Shown here: in pieces, positions 1-10,580 of the stretch
Layout: every line of letters begins with the position of its first letter
Numbering within the stretch: position 1 is the first letter of the stretch
NCBI GenBank assembly: GCA_021776335.1
Contig: JAJFGB010000011.1
Coordinates: 62,001-126,000 of the forward strand
Direction of reading: 5' to 3'
Length of the DNA stretch: 64,000 bases
Origin: Hyphococcus sp.
Lineage (GTDB): Bacteria > Pseudomonadota > Alphaproteobacteria > Caulobacterales > Parvularculaceae
Notes under the pieces: generated by a model
The model's input: the letters and a program-made list of their open reading frames with translations, nothing else
Databases searched by the model: none
Told to the model about the DNA's origin: nothing
Position numbers and translations under genes: made by a program

Positions 1-1351
1 CGGACGTCGGCACAATCATTTGTGACGAGAAATCTCTGAATGTCAGTGTGAATGCGTTGCCATCGGGCAATTCTTCATGGAGAAATTCGCCGCCGCAAAC
101 CTCCGATGCGCGCGCGACAATACGCAACGCCATCGGCATGTCCGACCCCTGGCTGGTCAAATAGTTTTCGATTTTTGTTAGTGGCTTTGTTTCTTCCACA
201 AACTGTTGTGAGGGCTTGGGCTGACCGTCATCGCGAAGCATCAGCGACACAATATCGTCTTGTTGCTGTAGCGTAAGCATCAGTTTCGACACGCCCACAG
301 GCCCTGTATTATAATAGTCGGCGAGGGATTGAATTGCCGTTTTTACAGCATATTCACTGGTTCTTATTTCTCCGGTCGACCCCTCCGTTGTCACCTTGAT
401 TCCGGCCTCGATCAATTCGCCCAAATCAGCAATCGCAGAAGTAACTGACGCCGGTTCTTCCTTGCGGCTCTCGACTTCGTCCAGACGATGGTAGATCAAC
501 AGGCTGTTGACGCTGCTGGCCAGATTCGCCGTCGCCTCCTTGATATATCGCGCGCTCTCAACGCCGGCCTCAGGGTCGTGTTGATCATTGTCACTTGCCA
601 GGCTGTCCATCACGATATCTGAAAAACCGCTGATCTGATGCAGGGGCGTTTTGACGAAATGAACCAGCATATTCAGCGCCGCGACCTTTCGCTGGTTGTC
701 CCGGCGTGCGTCTTTGAGAAGCGCGTTGAGTTGAATATTTTGTTCGCTGATTGTTTGCGTTTTAAGAAAATCGACTCGCTGATAACGCTGCATCAGGTAA
801 ACGCCCAGAAGAGCGATGACACCGACAAGAGCCACGTTTGTCGATTGCAGCAAGGCCGCTTGCTGTTCACTCATACTGCCCGCAACAATGACGAACTGCA
901 CAAAAGGTGCGCCGACAACTAGGCACATGGAATGAAAACTCAGGCGCAAGAGCACCGCCGCCATGATGTAGCTTTGGATCAACCCAAGATACCATGTGTT
1001 GTCGAGCGAAGGCTGAAGCCAGAGAATGACGTTAAGCGATGAACACATCAGCAGGACGATAACTGCAATCACCAAGTCATGGTGTTTTCTGATACGCGGC
1101 GACAACAGCGTCGAAAACAACAATGCGCTAAGCACAAAAGTGATAAGTCTGACAATTACCGGACGGGATGGATTTACGGTGTCTATGAAATCGGAAAAAA
1201 TATACAGAATAAAAACGCTTAAGCCGATGCCAATGCCCCAAGCATTGACCTTTATATTCCGCTTGAAAATATGCGCCTGAAACGCCGCTTCGCTTTTTTT
1301 GGATGCGAAGCGGGAGCTTAAAAGACTTATCTTGTCGGTTTCAGACAACAT
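1..1351 (-). CDS. Membrane sensor histidine kinase-like protein, C-terminus off the window; catalytic domain looks degenerate
   Basis: Not in ORF track (no stop inside window). Manual minus-strand translation from ATG at 1351: MLSETDKISLLSSRFASKKSEAAFQ..., hydrophobic N-terminus, H-box LVHFVKTPLHQISGFSDIV at about residue 231, open to position 2 in the same frame. Confidence 0.8.
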   Translation of the reverse strand, partial: MLSETDKISLLSSRFASKKSEAAFQAHIFKRNIKVNAWGIGIGLSVFILYIFSDFIDTVNPSRPVIVRLITFVLSALLFSTLLSPRIRKHHDLVIAVIVLLMCSSLNVILWLQPSLDNTWYLGLIQSYIMAAVLLRLSFHSMCLVVGAPFVQFVIVAGSMSEQQAALLQSTNVALVGVIALLGVYLMQRYQRVDFLKTQTISEQNIQLNALLKDARRDNQRKVAALNMLVHFVKTPLHQISGFSDIVMDSLASDNDQHDPEAGVESARYIKEATANLASSVNSLLIYHRLDEVESRKEEPASVTSAIADLGELIEAGIKVTTEGSTGEIRTSEYAVKTAIQSLADYYNTGPVGVSKLMLTLQQQDDIVSLMLRDDGQPKPSQQFVEETKPLTKIENYLTSQGSDMPMALRIVARASEVCGGEFLHEELPDGNAFTLTFRDFSSQMIVPTS

Positions 1352-1542
1352 CCTGGCTCACTGATTTCAGTGTCCGACATACCTTATTCGGTTTAGCTAT
1401 TGGTAAATGAGCACGCGTCGAATGCTGGTGCGCGCAATCATTTTGCTTTCAAAATGAAACCGTAAAAATAACGTCAGTATCGAAGCGAGCGCTTGCCGGA
1501 AGGCCGGCGGGGCCTTGTGGAAACTTCAAAAAGACCCTAGTG

Positions 1543-1557
1543 TTAACAATTAGTTAA
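1543..1557. promoter_or_regulatory. Perfect CtrA box TTAA-N7-TTAA (TTAACAATTAGTTAA)
   Basis: Exact match to TTAA-N7-TTAA, 30 bp upstream of the CDS at 1588. Confidence 0.65.
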
Positions 1558-1587
1558 CGGCGCTTTTGCAAGCGACTGTGTGAGTAC

Positions 1588-2325
1588 ATGATTGATATAC
1601 TGGAAAAGCAGTTTCAGCCAATATTAGAGGACTTTCTCGCGTCTTCTGCCATTCTGCATTTAACCTCCAGCAATCTCACCGTTGAGGCCTATCGATCATA
1701 TCTCAGACAAACCTTCTACTATGTAAGAGAAAACCCACAGCTTCAGGCTCTGGCGACGATATATTTTCGTGGCCGCCAGCGGGATATGGTCAAGAGCTTT
1801 TACGCTCATGCGTCCTCCGAAATCGGGCATGAACAATTGGCGCTGAATGATTTTGTCACGCTGGGCGGCAACGACGCCTACACACCTTATCAAAACCCGC
1901 TTCCGGCGACGACCGCGCTTACCTCATTTGCCTATTATCAGATCTATAACCAGAACCCGCTCGGCTATCTCGGCTATCTGTTTTTCCTTGAGTTTTTGCC
2001 GACACAGGCCGGAGAAGCGATCTCTCAGCATTTGAGGGCGGCTGGCGTTCCGGAAAATGCGATGACGTTTCTTCGGGACCATATGGAAATTGATGTCAGC
2101 CACAACAGGTTGATGAAACAATATGCAAAGAGGCTTTTGAAAACTGAAGCTGATCTCGCGGCGGTGCACTATGCGATGAAAACCACGGGGTATCTTTACG
2201 CCCAAATGATCGGCGCCGCATTTGAAGACGCGGACCAGCGCATGGATACCGGCTGGAACTGGGAAGAACTTAACGCTGACGGCATTACGCCAGGAGAGCT
2301 TTCAAAGACCAGAGTTGTTGCGTAA
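1588..2325 (+). CDS. Iron-containing redox enzyme family / haem-oxygenase-like diiron oxidase (TenA-like fold)
   Basis: 245 aa helical protein with E/H ligand-type motifs EIGHEQLALND, EFLPTQAGE, DHMEIDVSHNRLM. Confidence 0.7.
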   Translation: MIDILEKQFQPILEDFLASSAILHLTSSNLTVEAYRSYLRQTFYYVRENPQLQALATIYFRGRQRDMVKSFYAHASSEIGHEQLALNDFVTLGGNDAYTPYQNPLPATTALTSFAYYQIYNQNPLGYLGYLFFLEFLPTQAGEAISQHLRAAGVPENAMTFLRDHMEIDVSHNRLMKQYAKRLLKTEADLAAVHYAMKTTGYLYAQMIGAAFEDADQRMDTGWNWEELNADGITPGELSKTRVVA

Positions 2326-2368
2326 CAGCGCGTTCGCCGCAGGCGGCGCAAACGCGCTGCTGCCTTTT
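2326..2368. terminator. Hairpin between convergent genes, likely shared terminator
   Basis: CAGCGCGTT ... AACGCGCTG perfect 9-bp arms with inner GCCGC/GCGGC, followed by a short T-rich tract. Confidence 0.65.
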
Positions 2369-2371
2369 CCG

Positions 2372-3112
2372 CTAGGGTCTGATATAGCGCGCAACAATCG
2401 AACGGCGCTTATCAAAAATTCTTTGGTCAGATAAATCAACGCGCATGACAGCGACGTCCCCAAAACAAGGGTGAAGTTTGCTCGGATTTTGCACCTCAAA
2501 GCACATTCGCTCATAAAACGATACAAGGTGTTGATTGCAGTCCAGAAAACTCCAGGCGGCCCTGCGAGCCAACGCTATATTAAAACATTCCGCACTGAGC
2601 ATAAGCGGTAACAGCCTGCGGCGTTCGGATTTTACAACCATCAGCCGTGATGAAAAGGCCACGTTTTGGGGGTAGCTTGCTCCAGCCGTCTCAAGCTCGA
2701 GAAAATCTCGATAAAACCCGCAATTGCCGTCGGCGCAAAAGTTTATCCGGGCCGTGCCTGTTATTTTCCCATCTTTGAATGCGCCGATGTTGTAAGCATA
2801 GTCGTCAAACGGGTCTTTGATTGTTTTTTTTTCATGATCTGCGTACTGATCATTTCTTTGCATTTCCCCTTCATATATTTTGTAACGAAATTTGTAGATG
2901 TCCGGGGCGTCTTCGCCCGGCTTGAAGATGCGAAGCCCATGCGTTGCGCTCTTCGGTTGCTTCCGCCCTATATGACAGCGCGCGGTTGCGACGTTTCTTC
3001 GCTGCACGCCGGTACAACTTTGTGGAGAAAAGACTCTGTTTTCTGATTTGTTTAGGTGGCTTTCTCGACCCGACGAAGGCCACCTTGCTACGTCGCTATT
3101 ATACTCTGACAT
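2372..3112 (-). CDS. N-acyl amino acid synthase FeeM-like / autoinducer-synthase-fold GNAT acyltransferase
   Basis: GLRIFKPGEDAPDIYKFRYKIYEGEMQRNDQYADHEKKTIKDPFDDYAYNIGAFKDGKITGTARINF; the FRY.-Y..EM....D..D layout is typical of FeeM/LuxI-like acyltransferases. Confidence 0.7.
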   Translation of the reverse strand: MSEYNSDVARWPSSGRESHLNKSENRVFSPQSCTGVQRRNVATARCHIGRKQPKSATHGLRIFKPGEDAPDIYKFRYKIYEGEMQRNDQYADHEKKTIKDPFDDYAYNIGAFKDGKITGTARINFCADGNCGFYRDFLELETAGASYPQNVAFSSRLMVVKSERRRLLPLMLSAECFNIALARRAAWSFLDCNQHLVSFYERMCFEVQNPSKLHPCFGDVAVMRVDLSDQRIFDKRRSIVARYIRP

Positions 3113-3544
3113 GTAAGGCCCAAAAACGCGTGGCCTCCCCCGTGGGGGAAATTATGCCTGACAAATCACAAATATCAAAACGTTGACGGTTAACACACTC
3201 GCAGAACGGGCAGTGATCGATCAGGGTGAGCAATAGACGAGAGCGTTTATCGCCCTTCAAACAACCATGGCGGGAATTTGATTCTTTTCAATCAGACTGC
3301 GGAACAGATGGCCGAACTGCAGTTTCATCAAAATAAATTTCAGGCGCACTGATATGCATCCTGATGGGTTTGCGCTTTCTCTATTTTTCCTGACCGGCAA
3401 ACGGCTGCGCCCGATCCCGGGTTGGCTTTGACCGCTGTTGGCGCATTTCTCGAGTTGAAAGCGAGGCTTTCAACTACTAGACGCGTTCATCATGCATATA
3501 GCGCCGCCTGTCGGCGTTCAGAACGGTCGACAATACATCAGCGA

Positions 3545-3608
3545 GCAGGCGTAGCTCATGGATAGAGCAAAATCTTGCCAAGTTTAGGTCGTCTGATCGC
3601 CCGCTCCA
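3545..3608 (+). pseudogene. tRNA-Gly(GCC) remnant with deleted T-arm
   Basis: GCAGGCG-TA-GCTC-ATGGATA-GAGC-A-AAATC-TTGCCAA-GTTTA ... CGCCCGC-T-CCA: acceptor pairs 6/7, D-arm intact, GCC anticodon in a 7-nt loop, encoded CCA; about 11 nt of the T stem-loop missing and anticodon stem mismatched. Confidence 0.8.
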
Positions 3609-3610
3609 GG

Positions 3611-3625
3611 TTTAAACATTGTTAA
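3611..3625. promoter_or_regulatory. Near-consensus CtrA box (TTTA-N7-TTAA)
   Basis: TTTAAACATTGTTAA, one mismatch to TTAA-N7-TTAA, about 100 bp upstream of the kinase at 3724. Confidence 0.4.
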
Positions 3626-3723
3626 CCTTATCGCGGCCTGAAACCGCACACAAAGAGGCATCAGGCCAAGAGCTCCTTAACGATATCAGCCTATAAACTG
3701 CGCTTTAATCTTCTGGCGTAGGC

Positions 3724-5217
3724 ATGAGTCCCAACCGCAACCATCTTGCCAATCTTGCCAAGAGCGTCTTTGACGGTCTGTTTGGCAGCGTTGCGCCCGG
3801 TCAGATCGATTGGGCGTTGGCGCGATTTGCAGATCGTACGGAAGAGAAGAATTACCAACAACACCTTGTTGATATCGAATTGCCCAAGGATAGGTTGGTT
3901 AATTATCTCGGCATCACAATCTATATGGTTTTCGGTTTTCTGGACCTGATGACATTCCAGGAAAACCTGAATCAGGTGCTTATCCTGAGATGGGTTATTT
4001 GCACACCCATTGCCATCCTTCTAATCACACTGACTTTTTCGGATTCGATTAAGCGACATTTTCAACTCGTCACGATCGCTGTGATGGCGATCGGCTCTGG
4101 CTCCATGGTCGCGATGATTGGTTTGATGGGACCGGAGGGCGGGCCGCCTTATATTGTTGGTGTTCTTGCTATCTTTATTTTCTTCTCATGCATTCAACGC
4201 ATGCATTATCCAATCGCCGCCACAGTTTATATGGCAATCGTCGCTTGCTATTCGGCAACAATCGTCTTTGTCAGCCCAAAAAGCAGCGAAGAAATTATCA
4301 GCGGCCACTTCTTTATGATCTTTATCGCATCGGTTGCGCTTTTTACGACATATATGCAGGAAATCAGATCCAGGCTGGACTATTTTCAACGACGCCAACG
4401 TGAGCTCGACGCTGCCTATATTCAGGAGTTGTTGATAGAAGCGACGGCCGCGGACCGCGCAAAAATTAGTTTCCTTTCAATTCTAAGTCACGAAATGCGA
4501 ACGCCATTGCATCAAATTGTCGGGTTTTCCGAGGTCGTTCGCAATCAGTTGCAACAAACGCTCGTCTCGGACTCCGCAAAATACCTGGATGAAATTCACA
4601 GCTCTGCGACGGGTTTGCTGTCTACAATTGGAAAAATTCTGCGCTACGCTGACGCCACTGCCGGCAAAGTTTCGTATGAAATCGACACTTGCTCGATAAA
4701 ATACCTTGTTGAAACCGTTTGCGAACAGGCCTTGACGAAAGCGGAAGCAAAAAGAATTACCATTGACGTTAACAAAATTGAGCCGACGACGCTCCAAATC
4801 GACCATCCTCATACATGTTATGCGCTCGGGCACATTGTTGAAAATGCAATCAACGCCTCCGCAACCGGCTCTACCATCGAAATAAGCGGCGCTGCCGATC
4901 CCAATGGCGGCTATATCCTTTCAATACGAGATTATGGCTGCGGCATGACGGCTGCCCAGATTAAAGACGCCATGACGCCTTTCACTCAAACCGAATCTCA
5001 CAAAACGCGCAACCGGGTCGGTGTCGGTATTGGGCTAACACTCGCAAAGAAAATTCTCTCTGACCAGAAAGCACAATTAACCATCGAGTCAGCGCCGGAA
5101 AAGGGCGCCACGGCTTACGTCCATTTTGCATTAAGCGCGCAAACACCGACAGAGTCGGAAACCGCATTACCGTCCGGTGCTAGCGGCCCGGTTTATCGAG
5201 AACAAGAAAATGGATAG
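3724..5217 (+). CDS. Membrane sensor histidine kinase (multi-TM + HisKA + HATPase_c)
   Basis: Hydrophobic N-terminal segments; H-box SHEMRTPLHQIVGFSEVV; N-box IVENAINAS; G1 DYGCGM; G2 GVGIGLTLAKK. Confidence 0.9.
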   Translation: MSPNRNHLANLAKSVFDGLFGSVAPGQIDWALARFADRTEEKNYQQHLVDIELPKDRLVNYLGITIYMVFGFLDLMTFQENLNQVLILRWVICTPIAILLITLTFSDSIKRHFQLVTIAVMAIGSGSMVAMIGLMGPEGGPPYIVGVLAIFIFFSCIQRMHYPIAATVYMAIVACYSATIVFVSPKSSEEIISGHFFMIFIASVALFTTYMQEIRSRLDYFQRRQRELDAAYIQELLIEATAADRAKISFLSILSHEMRTPLHQIVGFSEVVRNQLQQTLVSDSAKYLDEIHSSATGLLSTIGKILRYADATAGKVSYEIDTCSIKYLVETVCEQALTKAEAKRITIDVNKIEPTTLQIDHPHTCYALGHIVENAINASATGSTIEISGAADPNGGYILSIRDYGCGMTAAQIKDAMTPFTQTESHKTRNRVGVGIGLTLAKKILSDQKAQLTIESAPEKGATAYVHFALSAQTPTESETALPSGASGPVYREQENG

Positions 5218-6625
5218 CATCAAGCGGATCTGAAAGAATTTGGACCCTGGCGTCATCAACGCCGCTCGCCATCGCCTTCATGTCATTTTCATTTCTGAAA
5301 TACAGCGTCCAATCGAGCACATACTCCATTGGCCACAATGTCCCGGTTCGCTTGTCATTGACGTTGCTTATGATCAAGCGGCCGCCAGGCTTGAGAAAAT
5401 CATACATCCGGCGAATAAAGCGCATCGCGAGCAACGGATTTAAATAGTCGACCAAGCCTGCAGAGTAGACAATATCCTGCTGAAATATTTGCGCGCCAAC
5501 AGGCGATGCGCCGAGCATATCCTTAAATGAAACGTTCAAGGCTGTTGCTCGTAGTCGCTCTGAACCAGGAAGCCCCATCGCCGATGTCAGCGCATAGTCA
5601 AGCGCTTCGGGCTCTTGATCGACAAGTGTCATCGCCCAGGTCGTCGAAGAAGGAGAGCTCGCGAGAATGGGCTCAAGCTCGCGTGCCGGCCCGCAACCAA
5701 TACTCATGACATTGACCGCTCTCGCAGCATCTTCACGTGTCGCTGCATGATCCACGATAAGTTGCGCAATCGTCTGCATCCGAGACACGATAGGTTTACC
5801 CGCTTCAACACCGAGCATGTGTAAAAACTTTGACCGTAGTGACGGCCCCACAGGCGTTCCGTCATACATAAAGTTCATGATGCTGTAGTCGCCGGGATAT
5901 CCCATTGGCTTGAAATAGCACCGCGCCCAACTGGCGCCGCCAACCAATTCACGGGTGACGACGCGTTCAGTAAAAGCCTTGAGGCTGTTGCGAAGCTCTT
6001 TGTCCGTATTACAGGGGATTACCAGATCATTGCCGTCCTCAAGCAACCGTCGCCACGGTTCGCTCGCGGCGCCAATCAGAGCGTCAATTAGTTCATGAGA
6101 TTCTTGGGGCGTTAATTTATCTTCTATCGGCGCCAGGTGCTGATCAATCCGATTGAGGTATCCGCCAACAAAATTCAAAACCTCGGCGCAATAACTTTTA
6201 TATATCTGAGGTGGTTCAGGAGCGGCATGTGGAGACACTGGTTCGAGCGCTAGTGTACCGGCATTTCTGCGCACCAGAGCGTCGAGGTCAAATTTCCGCC
6301 CCGTTAGAGCGACGCCAATACTGAAATCACCGCCGGTAATTTGCGAGCGAACCTGCACCGCCGGCGCGCTGAAGATTTCACGGCCATGCTGGGTCAAGCG
6401 TAACACACCCTCAATGGAACCCTCGGGCGGTTCATCCGCCAGGTCCAGATAACGGGAGGAACAGCCCGCACCGCTCACACTTATATTTATTAGATCAAAT
6501 TCGTTGCCGTCGAACCACGCCCGGGGGGGCATGCCCAAAAACAGCTTTTTTGCCTCAAAACGCTTTGGTCGAAAAAAACGACTGTTTCCATGCGCTCCTT
6601 TGAGATCCTCATATGTTTCAGACAT
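5180..6625 (-). CDS. PilZ-like domain + class I SAM-dependent methyltransferase, resembling PhcB-type 3-OH-PAME biosynthesis proteins
   Basis: N-terminal PilZ-like segment (ISVSGAGC...); FKPMGYPGDYSIMNFMYDGTPVGPSLRSKFLHMLGV; SAM motif VNVMSIGCGPARELEP; FLKPGGRLIISNVND. Confidence 0.75.
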   Translation of the reverse strand: MSETYEDLKGAHGNSRFFRPKRFEAKKLFLGMPPRAWFDGNEFDLINISVSGAGCSSRYLDLADEPPEGSIEGVLRLTQHGREIFSAPAVQVRSQITGGDFSIGVALTGRKFDLDALVRRNAGTLALEPVSPHAAPEPPQIYKSYCAEVLNFVGGYLNRIDQHLAPIEDKLTPQESHELIDALIGAASEPWRRLLEDGNDLVIPCNTDKELRNSLKAFTERVVTRELVGGASWARCYFKPMGYPGDYSIMNFMYDGTPVGPSLRSKFLHMLGVEAGKPIVSRMQTIAQLIVDHAATREDAARAVNVMSIGCGPARELEPILASSPSSTTWAMTLVDQEPEALDYALTSAMGLPGSERLRATALNVSFKDMLGASPVGAQIFQQDIVYSAGLVDYLNPLLAMRFIRRMYDFLKPGGRLIISNVNDKRTGTLWPMEYVLDWTLYFRNENDMKAMASGVDDARVQILSDPLDAIHFLVLDKPGR

Positions 6626-6666
6626 TCACGCGCTCGCCTACTGTTGCCCCCTCCGATGAATTATCT

Positions 6667-6681
6667 TTAATAAAGCGTTAA
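6667..6681. promoter_or_regulatory. Perfect CtrA box TTAA-N7-TTAA (TTAATAAAGCGTTAA)
   Basis: Exact match, 41 bp upstream of the minus-strand PilZ-methyltransferase, in the divergent intergenic region with fadL-like gene. Confidence 0.65.
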
Positions 6682-6836
6682 TTTCAACAGCTTTTTTCAG
6701 GGCGCAGTGCGATTAGGCGTTAATCATTGCAAAAACAACCCCGCGTTAACTATTGTAAACGAAGTTATCGGCGGCGCAGCTTGCAAAGCGCGCTTTTCCC
6801 TTTAAACGCAGGCCGCTCCAAAAAGGCTCAGAATCT

Positions 6837-8171
6837 ATGAAAACACAGAGTTTGCTCAGCATTACTTCATGGGCGGCGCTCAGTTTTGGCGCCCAGGCCG
6901 CTGGGTTTGCCCTTGAGCAACAAAACGCCGCGGCAATCGGCGGCGCTTATGCAGGCGCCCAAACGGAAACCGGTGATGTCGGCTTCATTTATTATAATCC
7001 CGCAGCGCTCGCAGATATCGAGGGCCTGCAGTTATCCGCCAATATCTCAGCAATCATTATCGATTCCGCCTACAGCAACGCCGCCGGTACGCTTCTTGGT
7101 CTGGCGCCGACAACCGGCCTCAACGCAGACAATGGCGCCCTCAAAGACACTGTTCTGCCCGCTGTCTTTTTCGGCATTCGGGTAAATGAGGCCCTGTCTC
7201 TGGGCTTTGGGGTGAACGCGCCGTTTGGGCTCAACTCCACTTATTCAACCAGCTCAATTGTTCGATACCATGCAACCGAAACAGATTTAAAGACAATGTC
7301 GTTTAATGCGGCGGCGGCCGTTAAACTATCAAACAAGCTTTCGATTGGCGGCGCCTTGCGGGTGCAACGGCTGGATTTCAAAGTTGGCAATGCGATCGAC
7401 TCGGCTGGCATTCTCGTTGCGAACACCGTACCCGGCTTTGTTCCCGGTACAGATGATGCTCTTGTCGTGCTTGACGGAAAAGATTTTGCAATAGGATACC
7501 AGATCGGTGCGATAAGCCAGCCGGCAGATGGTTGGAGCATCGGCGTCAACTATGCGTCAAAGATCGACCATGAATTTGACGGCGCGGCCAGTTTTGAAAT
7601 CATGTCTTCTCCGGCAAGCCAGTTGTTGAATGGATCATTCGGCCTGTTTCAAGACACAACATTTTCCAGCGCGCTCTCCACGCCCGCGAGTTTTTCAGTC
7701 GGCGTTGCTCATGATGCGTCGAAATCCCTCACATTAAAAGGGTCCGCTGTCTACACACTGTGGCACAGCTTTGAGGGCGTCGTCATTGCTTTTGATAATC
7801 CGGCGCAACCAACTGAAACATTGATGCAGGACTGGAAGGACAGTTGGGCTTTTTCTCTGGGCGGCGACTACCGAGTTGCAGAGCGAACAACGCTTCGAGC
7901 GGGTTTTATGTTCGATGCATCACCAGTAAATGATTCATTCGCTTCACCGCGCATCCCCGATGCAGATCGCTACTGGATCAATGCAGGCTTCACACAGATT
8001 ATCGGTGACAGAATGAAGCTGGATTTTGGCGCCGGATACGTGTTTGTAGATCAACGAAACATCTTGCAGCCTGCGGCGTTGCCAGAAAACCTCTTCCGCG
8101 GGAGCCTCACAAACAGCTACGACACGAATGCTCTCGTTGTGTCATTACGTTTGCTGTATCGTCGAAATTGA
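6837..8171 (+). CDS. Outer membrane long-chain fatty acid transporter, OmpP1/FadL/TodX family
   Basis: GFALEQQNAAAIGGAYAGAQTETGDVGFIYYNPAALADIEG start and beta-barrel pattern to YRR-terminus. Confidence 0.9.
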   Translation: MKTQSLLSITSWAALSFGAQAAGFALEQQNAAAIGGAYAGAQTETGDVGFIYYNPAALADIEGLQLSANISAIIIDSAYSNAAGTLLGLAPTTGLNADNGALKDTVLPAVFFGIRVNEALSLGFGVNAPFGLNSTYSTSSIVRYHATETDLKTMSFNAAAAVKLSNKLSIGGALRVQRLDFKVGNAIDSAGILVANTVPGFVPGTDDALVVLDGKDFAIGYQIGAISQPADGWSIGVNYASKIDHEFDGAASFEIMSSPASQLLNGSFGLFQDTTFSSALSTPASFSVGVAHDASKSLTLKGSAVYTLWHSFEGVVIAFDNPAQPTETLMQDWKDSWAFSLGGDYRVAERTTLRAGFMFDASPVNDSFASPRIPDADRYWINAGFTQIIGDRMKLDFGAGYVFVDQRNILQPAALPENLFRGSLTNSYDTNALVVSLRLLYRRN

Positions 8172-8201: not shown

Positions 8202-10580
8202 TTACGCCGCATCCTCGCCAACGAGAATTTCACGGCGGCCAGCGTGGTTTGCGGGCGAAATGACGCCCTCTTCTTCCATTTTCTCGATCAATGTCGCAGC
8301 CCGGTTATATCCAATCTGCAAGCGGCGCTGCACATAGGAGGTCGACGCCTTGCGGTCCCTTAAGACCACCGCAACAGCACGATCATAAAGGGCGTCTCCG
8401 GATGACGTATTGCCGCCAATGTCAAATCCGCCGCCGCCCTCGTCGCCTTCGCGCAATTCTGTAACTTCCTGAACATAGTCCGGCGCGCCTTGTTTTTTCA
8501 AAAACTTGACGATCTTTTCTACTTCATTATCCGAAACAAACGGCCCGTGAACACGCCGTAGGCGACCGCCCCCGGCCATGTGCAGCATGTCGCCCTGGCC
8601 GAGCAGTTGCTCTGCGCCTTGCTCGCCCAAAATCGTGCGGCTGTCGATTTTTGACGTCACCTGAAAGCTGATGCGCGTCGGAAAGTTTGCCTTGATGGTG
8701 CCGGTAATCACATCCACAGAGGGCCGCTGTGTTGCCATAATGAGGTGGATGCCCGCCGCACGCGCCATCTGCGCCAGACGCTGCACCATCGCCTCAATAT
8801 CCTTGCCAGCGACCATCATCAAATCGGCGACCTCATCAATGACCACGACGATGAAGGGCATTGGTTCGTATTCGAGATCTTCGGTTTCATAAACCGGTTC
8901 GCCGGTTTCTTCGTCGTAGCCAGTGTGAACCGTCCGCGACAGTGTTTCGCCTTTTTCCTCTGCTTCATCGACGCGGTCATTGAACCCTTCGATGTTGCGC
9001 ACGCCAACTTTTGACATCTTGCGGTAGCGCTCTTCCATCTCGCGCACAGTCCATTTCAGCGCAACAACGGCCTTGCGGGGGTCCGTAACAACCGGCGCCA
9101 GCAAATGCGGTATGCCGTCATAGACAGATAACTCAAGCATTTTTGGATCAACCAGGATTAGCTTGCATTGATCTGGAGACAGACGATAAAGCAAAGACAG
9201 GATCATGGTATTGATCCCAACCGATTTCCCGGAACCCGTGGTGCCTGCAATCAAGAGGTGCGGCATCCGCGCAAGATCTGCGAAAACCGGCTCGCCGCCG
9301 ATTGATTTCCCCAGCGCGAGGGTGAGGTCGCCGCCGGAATTTTCATACTCTGAGGCGCCCAGGAGTTCGCGGAGAAAAACCATCTCGCGATCCTGGTTCG
9401 GCAATTCAACACCAATCACATTTCTGCCCGGCACCAATGCGACGCGGCAAGCCACCGCGCTCATTGAGCGTGCGATATCGTCCGCAAGGCCAATGACCCG
9501 CGAGGATTTAACCCCTGCTGCAGGCTCCAGCTCATAAAGCGTTACGACCGGGCCCGGGCGTACATGGATGATTTCGCCTCTGACACCGAAATCCGCAAGG
9601 ACAGTTTCAAGCATGCGCGCATTTTGCTCCAGCGCATCATCTGAGATGACAGTCCGGCGGGCGCCGTTTGGCTTTGCAAGAAGGTTAAGCGGCGGCAATT
9701 CATAGGTGCCCGCTGAAAAAACAGGCAACACCGGTTGCGCCTCTCGCCGTTCTCGGCGGCTATCTGATGCTTTCAGATCTTTTCGAATAATTCTGCGCTT
9801 GCGGCGCGGCGCGGCGAGAACCGTATCCTCATCCTCATACTCGCCTTCTTCTTCGGTCCCATCCAGTTCGAACACCTCGCCACGCCCTTTGATCATTTCA
9901 AAGCGCGCGACAACGAAATCATGGACAAAATACCAACTGTCTTCGAGTGCCCAACAGGCTTCCATCACACGATCGCGCGTCAAGCCGCAGAGAATGGCGT
10001 AACTGACAATTCCGCCGATCGCAAAAACACCTGCAAGAAGTTGAGTGATCACGGGCAGCTCAAAGCCGGCCAGCAATCCTGTGAGGCCCGTCAGGATGGC
10101 ATCGCCAACGAACCCGCCCGGACCCGATGCAAACGGCCATGTTGCCGGCGCCGGAATAGCAGCGGCAAAAGCGGCCGCTGCCAGCAAAGCAACAGGCGCA
10201 AGCCCTAAACGAAGCCAGAAATCTCGTGGCGTTTCCTCAGGTGCGCCCTTGATAAACGCAACACCGCCCCAAATCGTCAGCGGCATAATCAATAAGAAGG
10301 ATGCCCCGCCAAGCGCCTGCAAAAACAGGTCAGCGGCGATGGCGCCAGCCGATCCGGCAATATTCTGCGCTGGCGCCGCAGTGGCAGTATTGAAACTGGG
10401 ATCGCTTATCGAAAAGGTCGAAAGCGCTGCGCATAGCCAAACCGCCAGCACCACCATCGCTACGCCGCCGGCGCGCATCAATACGCTGCGTGCGAACAGG
10501 CGTAGCCGCTCGATGAATTCTTCGAATTGATCTCGGTTTCGGGCGGAGCGGCGGGAAAATGTTCTGGTATGTCGCGACAT
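8202..10580 (-). CDS. ftsK: DNA translocase FtsK/SpoIIIE
   Basis: 792 aa; N-terminal TM segments; Walker [50 protein letters not shown]-terminal gamma wHTH. Confidence 0.97.

Follow-up and report, generated by a model that had tools for sequence, protein, structure and literature searches.

Enzymes of the haem-oxygenase-like diiron oxidase (HDO) superfamily take part in the biosynthesis of diazeniumdiolate signals, among them valdiazen and the Pvf signal, while the pherotype loci agr, comQXP and comCD are based on peptide signals in Gram-positive bacteria. To our knowledge, no genes have yet been assigned to many N-acyl metabolites. For the Phc system the gene order phcB-phcS-phcR-phcQ has been published (PMC8578825); this cluster is mainly betaproteobacterial (PMC10653808), whereas the locus considered here comes from Alphaproteobacteria. 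It lies at the left end of a 64,000-nucleotide stretch of Hyphococcus sp. (assembly GCA_021776335.1, contig JAJFGB010000011.1, positions 62,001 to 126,000), hereafter the window, which corresponds to G000:C3:62001-126000 of the 4.18 Mb genome G000. The locus comprises six genes, which encode two sensor kinase-like membrane proteins (HK1 and HK2), an oxidase (HDO), a FeeM-like acyltransferase, a PhcB-like methyltransferase and a FadL channel.

The original prediction assigned all six genes to the production and sensing of one acyl signal. The open reading frames lie where it placed them, and all six genes are genuine and were read correctly. Acyl-signal-type chemistry, the FadL neighbour and the membrane sensor kinases are supported as well. 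By their distribution among relatives, the six genes are nevertheless two modules and not one pathway: module A contains HK1, HDO and the acyltransferase, and module B contains HK2 and the methyltransferase, often with a desaturase and sometimes with FadL. The modules, the site they share, their alternation, their homologies and their exchange are demonstrated below from sequence. Probably, the locus holds alternative acyl-signal synthase/receptor cassettes that occupy one site under diversifying exchange. The division into modules, a degenerate tRNA-Gly repeat between them and the pseudokinase character of HK1 go beyond what was originally predicted.

Two modules at one site

The features of the region, in window coordinates, are the following.

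2-1351, minus strand: HK1, membrane sensor pseudokinase of module A (as judged by its motifs), 453 amino acids; its 3' end lies just beyond the left edge of the window (complete at 11990-13351 of L002, a fetched stretch of the same contig)
737-1351, within HK1: sensor half, about residues 1-205; the output half lies further left
1588-2325, plus strand: HDO, haem-oxygenase-like diiron oxidase, 245 amino acids, divergent from HK1
2372-3112, minus strand: predicted FeeM/LuxI-fold N-acyltransferase, 246 amino acids
3485-3608, plus strand: degenerate second copy of tRNA-Gly(GCC) together with its upstream sequence
3724-5217, plus strand: HK2, membrane sensor histidine kinase of module B, 497 amino acids, with intact kinase motifs
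5180-6625, minus strand: PhcB-like S-adenosylmethionine (SAM) methyltransferase, 481 amino acids; the gene overlaps the 3' end of HK2 by 38 bp
6837-8171, plus strand: FadL, outer-membrane lipid channel of the FadL/TodX type (Pfam Toluene_X/FadL PF03349, 6.7e-77), a probable uptake or export partner of the cassette
8202-10580, minus strand: ftsK, which forms the conserved right-hand border of the exchanged locus and is outside the system

Sixty relatives were searched with the acyltransferase, the methyltransferase and the oxidase, and the resulting hit lists are complementary. Among the 28 genomes of the genus, 16 contain only module A and 10 only module B, and none is without a module; both occur together only in the genome studied (G000) and in G017, which brings the totals to 18 for module A and 12 for module B. 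The expected overlap is 7.7 genomes and the observed one is 2 (hypergeometric p 5e-6, uncorrected for kinship). On the LeuRS tree the module state changes within the genus at least three to four times; the site has thus switched more than once, although the 28 genomes cannot count as independent. In the fetched neighbourhoods both modules are found between tRNA-Gly/proX/trx and ftsK/amt/ubiH. The ftsK gene is syntenic and about 74-90% identical across the genus while the cassette changes, and the GC content is 49-52% in the first 8 kb of the window as opposed to 55-57% directly to the right.

Co-occurrence of the genes in relatives holds within module A and within module B, and fails between the two. 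HK1 and HDO are kept together in all 19 loci of the family, an HK2-type kinase adjoins the methyltransferase in 15 of 15 module B loci, and in nine module B loci a fatty acid desaturase is placed beside or near the kinase. Since the acyltransferase and oxidase genes are in different genomes from the methyltransferase gene in 26 of the 28 congeners, each set works without the other. This separation argues against a single N-acylated, oxidised and methylated compound (such as a methyl ester of an N-acyl amino acid, of the kind known from Roseovarius), which would be sensed by two kinases with input from cyclic di-GMP (c-di-GMP), as originally proposed. Such a pathway would agree with the adjacency of all genes in the genome studied, and nearly so in G017, and with the occurrence in marine alphaproteobacteria of N-acyl alanine methyl esters, for which the synthase gene is unknown (PMC11580390). 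However, the two modules of the tandem meet at a tRNA repeat and a c-di-GMP motif is missing, as described below, and together with the separation of the gene sets this leaves the single pathway hardly credible.

The join between the modules carries a trace of the neighbouring tRNA gene. An intact tRNA-Gly(GCC) was called by ARAGORN just left of the window (L002 11846-11920), and no tRNA was called within the window. The tRNA-Gly stretch and positions 3485-3608 share a direct repeat of 101 nt with 84% identity, the copies being 3699 bp apart, and against the tRNA region of relatives the match of 3485-3608 is longer. The intact tRNA-Gly on the left and the degenerate copy on the other side thus enclose module A. 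Where the fetched stretch of a congener extends to proX, the cassette and proX are in most cases separated by a tRNA-Gly. As the repeat includes sequence from upstream of the tRNA, homologous recombination of two alleles would fit better than classical integration. No integrase was noticed at the site, although no profile search for integrases was made. A desaturase remnant was not found between the acyltransferase gene and HK2, the spacer carrying the tRNA-Gly remnant instead. In other genera module A is located near tRNA-Val(GAC) and not near tRNA-Gly (L113 11464-11538, L115 11372-11446 and L041 6671-6745), hinting at repeated use of tRNA sites.

Both modules extend beyond the genus. Module A is present in other genera, including the isolate Amphiplicatus metriothermophilus CGMCC 1.12710, and FadL adjoins HK1 in three loci outside the genus, that of Amphiplicatus and two others. 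Module B turns up in three further genera, in one case accompanied by FadL. FadL adjoins the methyltransferase in G031. In the sister genome G017 the gap between ftsK and the methyltransferase gene, which corresponds to the position of fadL in the window, contains a degraded FadL remnant with a stop (L025 4390-4458). A Coq4-like gene (PF05019) adjoins the module A cassette in eight loci, including L027 15623-16441 and L034 10305-11090. FeeM-HDO pairs are also found in a few gamma- and deltaproteobacterial metagenome-assembled genomes (MAGs). A broad linkage of HDO with FeeM was considered and rejected: among the best 30 HDO loci from 399 Pseudomonadota genomes, a FeeM or kinase gene is within 1.5 kb only in the two members of the family. 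In a MAG labelled Rhodospirillaceae, a FeeM-like acyltransferase fused to a C-terminal cyclic-nucleotide-binding domain adjoins the oxidase (L121 8797-9900), and in a Pseudomonadales MAG genes for a FeeM-like protein, an HDO and a fatty acid desaturase are consecutive, with Coq4-like genes near (L125 9195-11907).

To the left of the window, L002 1539-7689 (G000:C3 about 51.5-57.7 kb) reads like a bacterial sphingolipid synthesis cluster. Its genes, which were assigned by eye from the sequences alone, encode an acyl-ACP (acyl carrier protein) ligase-like protein, an epimerase/CerR-like protein, an ACP, an alpha-oxoamine synthase (Spt-like) and a GNAT-like protein of 390 amino acids.

Enzymes and sensors of the modules

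The HDO protein matches Haem_oxygenas_2 (Pfam PF14518, 5e-20), and its profile matches the PDB entries 3dde (E 2.6e-27) and 9ypi, which is MboA of mangotoxin biosynthesis (E 2e-10). The putative metal ligands Glu78, His81, Glu135, His165, Asp169 and His172, aligned with 3dde, are invariant in 20 orthologues. By its PF14518 match and its Glu/His/Asp ligands, HDO is assigned to the haem-oxygenase-like diiron oxidases.

The assignment of the acyltransferase to the FeeM/LuxI fold is borne out by both Pfam and structure prediction. It matches FeeM (PF21926) with 5.5e-9 and 36.4 bits (cut-off 27), and its model has a predicted confidence (pLDDT) above 90 over most of the core. In the fold search the best PDB matches are the acyl-homoserine lactone (AHL) synthases BjaI, MesI and LasI, followed by GNAT enzymes and by FeeM (2g0b; E 2e-7, TM score normalised to the target 0.72). 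The folded core begins at about residue 57, and the true start may therefore be downstream of the annotated one. The protein is not among the hits of the genome to PF00765 (LuxI) above the cut-off. The sole such hit is at G000:C8:122046-122396 (52 bits) and is patchy in the genus; ordinary AHL signalling may coexist with the locus.

The acyltransferase might alternatively make a lyso-aminolipid similar to ornithine or glycine lipids, which the oxidase would hydroxylate, with the kinase sensing the state of the envelope. FeeM-like and OlsB-like acyltransferases have related folds, and a lipid-synthesis cluster, recognised by reading only, is a few kb away. An OlsB-type aminolipid synthase was nevertheless rejected, as the OlsB model gives only 13 bits against a cut-off of 350. 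Moreover, a second (O-) acyltransferase is absent from the site, and one would not expect allelic variation in step with a sensor domain for a structural membrane lipid; an aminolipid function is thus very unlikely.

The methyltransferase contains an N-terminal beta-barrel (PilZ-like) domain and a long helical linker. Pfam finds only Methyltransf_12, below threshold, and a PDB fold search with the model (pLDDT 84.6, with the N-terminal domain predicted as mostly beta strands) retrieves mainly generic methyltransferase folds. The best matches outside the family in the 399 genomes, with E values of 1e-35 to 1e-31, include operons in which genes for a methyltransferase, a histidine kinase, a receiver-kinase fusion and a receiver follow one another, most clearly in L154. 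This is the published phcBSRQ order. The predicted PhcB-likeness was confirmed against the methyltransferases of these operons, the comparison partners being these proteins and not the named Ralstonia PhcB itself: hhalign gives a probability of 99.7% and E 8e-26 over 368 columns, including the linker. On this profile evidence the window enzyme is a full-length homologue of the phcBSRQ-type operon methyltransferases. The suggested c-di-GMP input via PilZ finds no such backing. PilZ gives no Pfam hit in the window methyltransferase and 16 bits in one orthologue (cut-off 22.5), and the N-terminal domain has a (D/N)xSxxG-like motif and lacks the c-di-GMP motif RxxxR.

The H-box signature TPLHQI-GFS, originally noticed as common to the two kinases, is real: H..(R/K)TP(L/I/V)HQI is present in all 32 aligned kinases of both modules from Parvularculaceae. 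In HK1 Pfam recognizes only HisKA, below threshold, and in HK2 both HisKA (PF00512, 3e-11) and HATPase_c (PF02518, 1.8e-16). All 19 HK1 proteins retain the phospho-acceptor His231 and the phosphatase Thr at position +4, and in all 19 the Glu at +1 is replaced by Phe and the N, G1 and G2 ATP boxes are lost. The H-E pair and the N, G1 and G2 boxes of HK2 are kept in 13 orthologues with minor variants only. By these motifs HK1 is a pseudokinase. In HisKA kinases an acidic residue at +1 is needed for kinase activity and Thr or Asn at +4 for phosphatase activity (PMC3510030), so that HK1, with Glu+1 lost and Thr+4 kept, most likely works as a signal-gated phosphatase or a scaffold. The sensor regions of HK1 and HK2 are homologous (hhalign probability 98.9, E 3e-17), and that of HK2 also matches PhcS-like sensors (probability 89, E 2e-6), while the Amt control in the same comparison gives about 0-1%.

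Joint exchange of the oxidase and the sensor half of HK1

Between the genomes G010 and G020 identity is 94% for LeuRS and 96% for ftsK, as against 57% for HDO, 41% for HK1 and 36% for the acyltransferase (FeeM), while G010 and G026, which are 91% identical in LeuRS, share a cassette allele at 92-94%. In blastn comparisons the homology breaks at the cassette between flanks of high identity. Uniformly fast evolution as the cause of the divergence is excluded by the difference between these two pairs, and also by Amt, which is as divergent as HDO yet follows LeuRS.

Correlations of divergence were calculated for 16 module A genomes with LeuRS as the species marker. The output half of HK1 correlates with LeuRS at rho 0.73, as opposed to 0.25 for the sensor half and 0.11-0.12 for HDO. 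The sensor half and HDO correlate with each other at 0.71, a value that stays at 0.71 when LeuRS is controlled for and was reached in none of 2000 permutations. In a sliding window along HK1, residues 1-210 correlate with HDO at 0.6-0.7 and with LeuRS at 0.13-0.35, and the relation is reversed for residues 271-450; the history changes at residues of about 210-270, where the sensor meets the dimerization and histidine phosphotransfer (DHp) domain. Of the neighbouring genes, Amt, FtsK, UbiH and Trx correlate with LeuRS at 0.62-0.75 (Amt 0.75); ProX, with 0.11 in 10 genomes, does not.

HDO and sensor trees have eight of 13 splits in common, including a deep division into two groups, and LeuRS shares one split with each. 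For the sensor data the topology of HDO costs 14.8 units of log-likelihood, compared with 387 for that of the HK1 output half and 558 for that of LeuRS; with the HDO data, the penalty is 22.7 for the sensor topology and 215-396 for the remaining ones. Close as they are, the topologies of HDO and the sensor still differ (approximately unbiased (AU) test, 0.029 and 0.0097). Sensor, HDO and FeeM each reject the species clade of G006, G007, G010, G020 and G026, and the output half does so less strongly. As far as sequence histories can tell, a putative signal maker and the sensor of its receptor share a history against both the species and the output domain, as expected of a pherotype. A place for FeeM in the co-exchanged block is not supported, as its history does not match. 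Module B is exchanged as well: the sisters G000 and G017 are 91% identical in ftsK and 92% in HDO, but 47% in the methyltransferase and 43% in HK2, for which sisterhood is rejected (AU 0.0018 and 5e-7).

Several observations weigh against a polymorphic signal/receptor locus. The alternation of the modules is clustered phylogenetically, so that 28 genomes are not 28 independent events, and the relatives are mostly MAGs, several of them from one project, which makes strain chimeras possible in single cases. The site contains no response regulator or transcription factor, and a PhcQ-like protein was not found in the genome studied. In one clade the output half of HK1 conflicts with LeuRS (AU 0.0045), and the output-half data reject the LeuRS topology, so vertical inheritance of this half is only approximate. 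FeeM does not have the history of HDO and the sensor (rho -0.01 and 0.14), which is odd if FeeM and HDO make one product. The correlation of HDO with the sensor falls with distance along HDO, from 0.73 to 0.35. Finally, HDO and the sensor-coding end of HK1 are divergently adjacent, and linkage alone could account for their co-exchange.

Part of the HDO/sensor pattern could stem from physical adjacency. Taken further, frequent recombination in the HK1-HDO intergenic region, with homology supplied by conserved flanks (the DHp region of the kinase, ftsK and the tRNA), might carry the sensor along passively with enzymes of ordinary lipid metabolism. The adjacency, the decay along HDO and the separate recombination of FeeM would all agree with this. 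It leaves unexplained, however, the deep alleles at one site beside an ftsK of 96% identity, the second module with a homologous sensor and other enzymes at the same site, and the change of history at the junction of sensor and output halves; linkage as the whole explanation is thus unlikely.

Competition could also drive the diversity, if the oxidase and acyltransferase made a toxic or antibiotic lipid and the pseudokinase were a regulator of self-sensing or immunity. Polymorphic alleles with a matched partner are typical of toxin-immunity loci too, and MboA is among the matches of the oxidase profile. At the site, though, no gene for a transporter, for immunity or for resistance was noticed, and the enzymes of module B resemble a known signal synthase, so that a role in antagonism appears quite unlikely.

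Proposed function and comparison with known systems

A polymorphic signal/receptor locus is the simplest account of the data because it covers the alternation, the swaps within conserved borders, the matched histories of enzyme and sensor and the homology to makers of acyl signals. In module B, the PhcB-like methyltransferase would make a fatty-acid (methyl) ester signal, whose acyl chain might in many genomes be altered by the neighbouring desaturase, and the PhcS-like kinase HK2 would sense the ester. In module A, the FeeM/LuxI-fold enzyme would make an N-acyl compound, and HDO would oxidise this compound or a partner substrate, e.g., by oxidative decarboxylation or N-oxygenation. HK1 would then sense the product as a ligand-controlled phosphatase or phosphotransfer scaffold, acting on a response regulator whose gene lies elsewhere. 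In loci with FadL, this channel could carry the lipid through the outer membrane. The role of the product as an extracellular signal, its structure and the direction of phosphate flow are inferred.

HDO and the HK1 sensor half move between species together, as one presumed specificity block, while the output half mostly remains with its species and the partner downstream of it. Both modules are present in tandem in the genome studied. The separate history of FeeM points to a receptor whose ligand is determined by HDO more than by FeeM, or to FeeM as the source of a common precursor. It is possible, and put forward tentatively, that the locus represents a new kind of quorum sensing, in which an HDO and a FeeM/LuxI-fold enzyme make a lipid signal, a pseudokinase reads it, HDO and sensor form private dialects and modules of the Phc type serve as replacements at the tRNA-Gly locus.

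If true, this would be a Gram-negative, small-molecule counterpart of the agr and com pherotypes. Evolution itself points to HDO as the enzyme whose product the receptor most likely reads, and the locus offers natural sensor chimeras for testing, with the isolate Amphiplicatus metriothermophilus making module A directly testable. A large and mostly uncharacterised oxidase family would gain a role, and HK1 would be a receptor that works without kinase activity.

Module B resembles Phc in having the enzyme and an adjacent membrane kinase with a similar sensor region side by side. It differs in the H-box, which is HEVNNP in Phc-type kinases and HEMRTPLHQI here, and in gene arrangement, operonic in Phc and convergent here, with no phcR or phcQ alongside and with desaturase or FadL neighbours. 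The module A acyltransferase shares the predicted fold of LuxI and FeeM synthases and matches Pfam FeeM above the cut-off, but its sequence is far from LuxI, and its partners are a diiron oxidase and a membrane pseudokinase instead of LuxR or a fee cluster. HDO belongs to the same metalloenzyme superfamily as MboA and the HDO enzymes of signal and toxin biosynthesis, although its partner is a FeeM-like acyltransferase and not an NRPS-like (nonribosomal peptide synthetase-like) system; the kinship offers a pointer to signalling routes of uncommon chemistry. With agr, comQXP and comCD the locus has in common a matched block of maker and receptor sensor, exchanged within conserved flanks while the output domain is retained; unlike in those loci, a metalloenzyme would produce the signal, which would be lipid-like, and the site is shared by entire alternative modules that have other enzymes.

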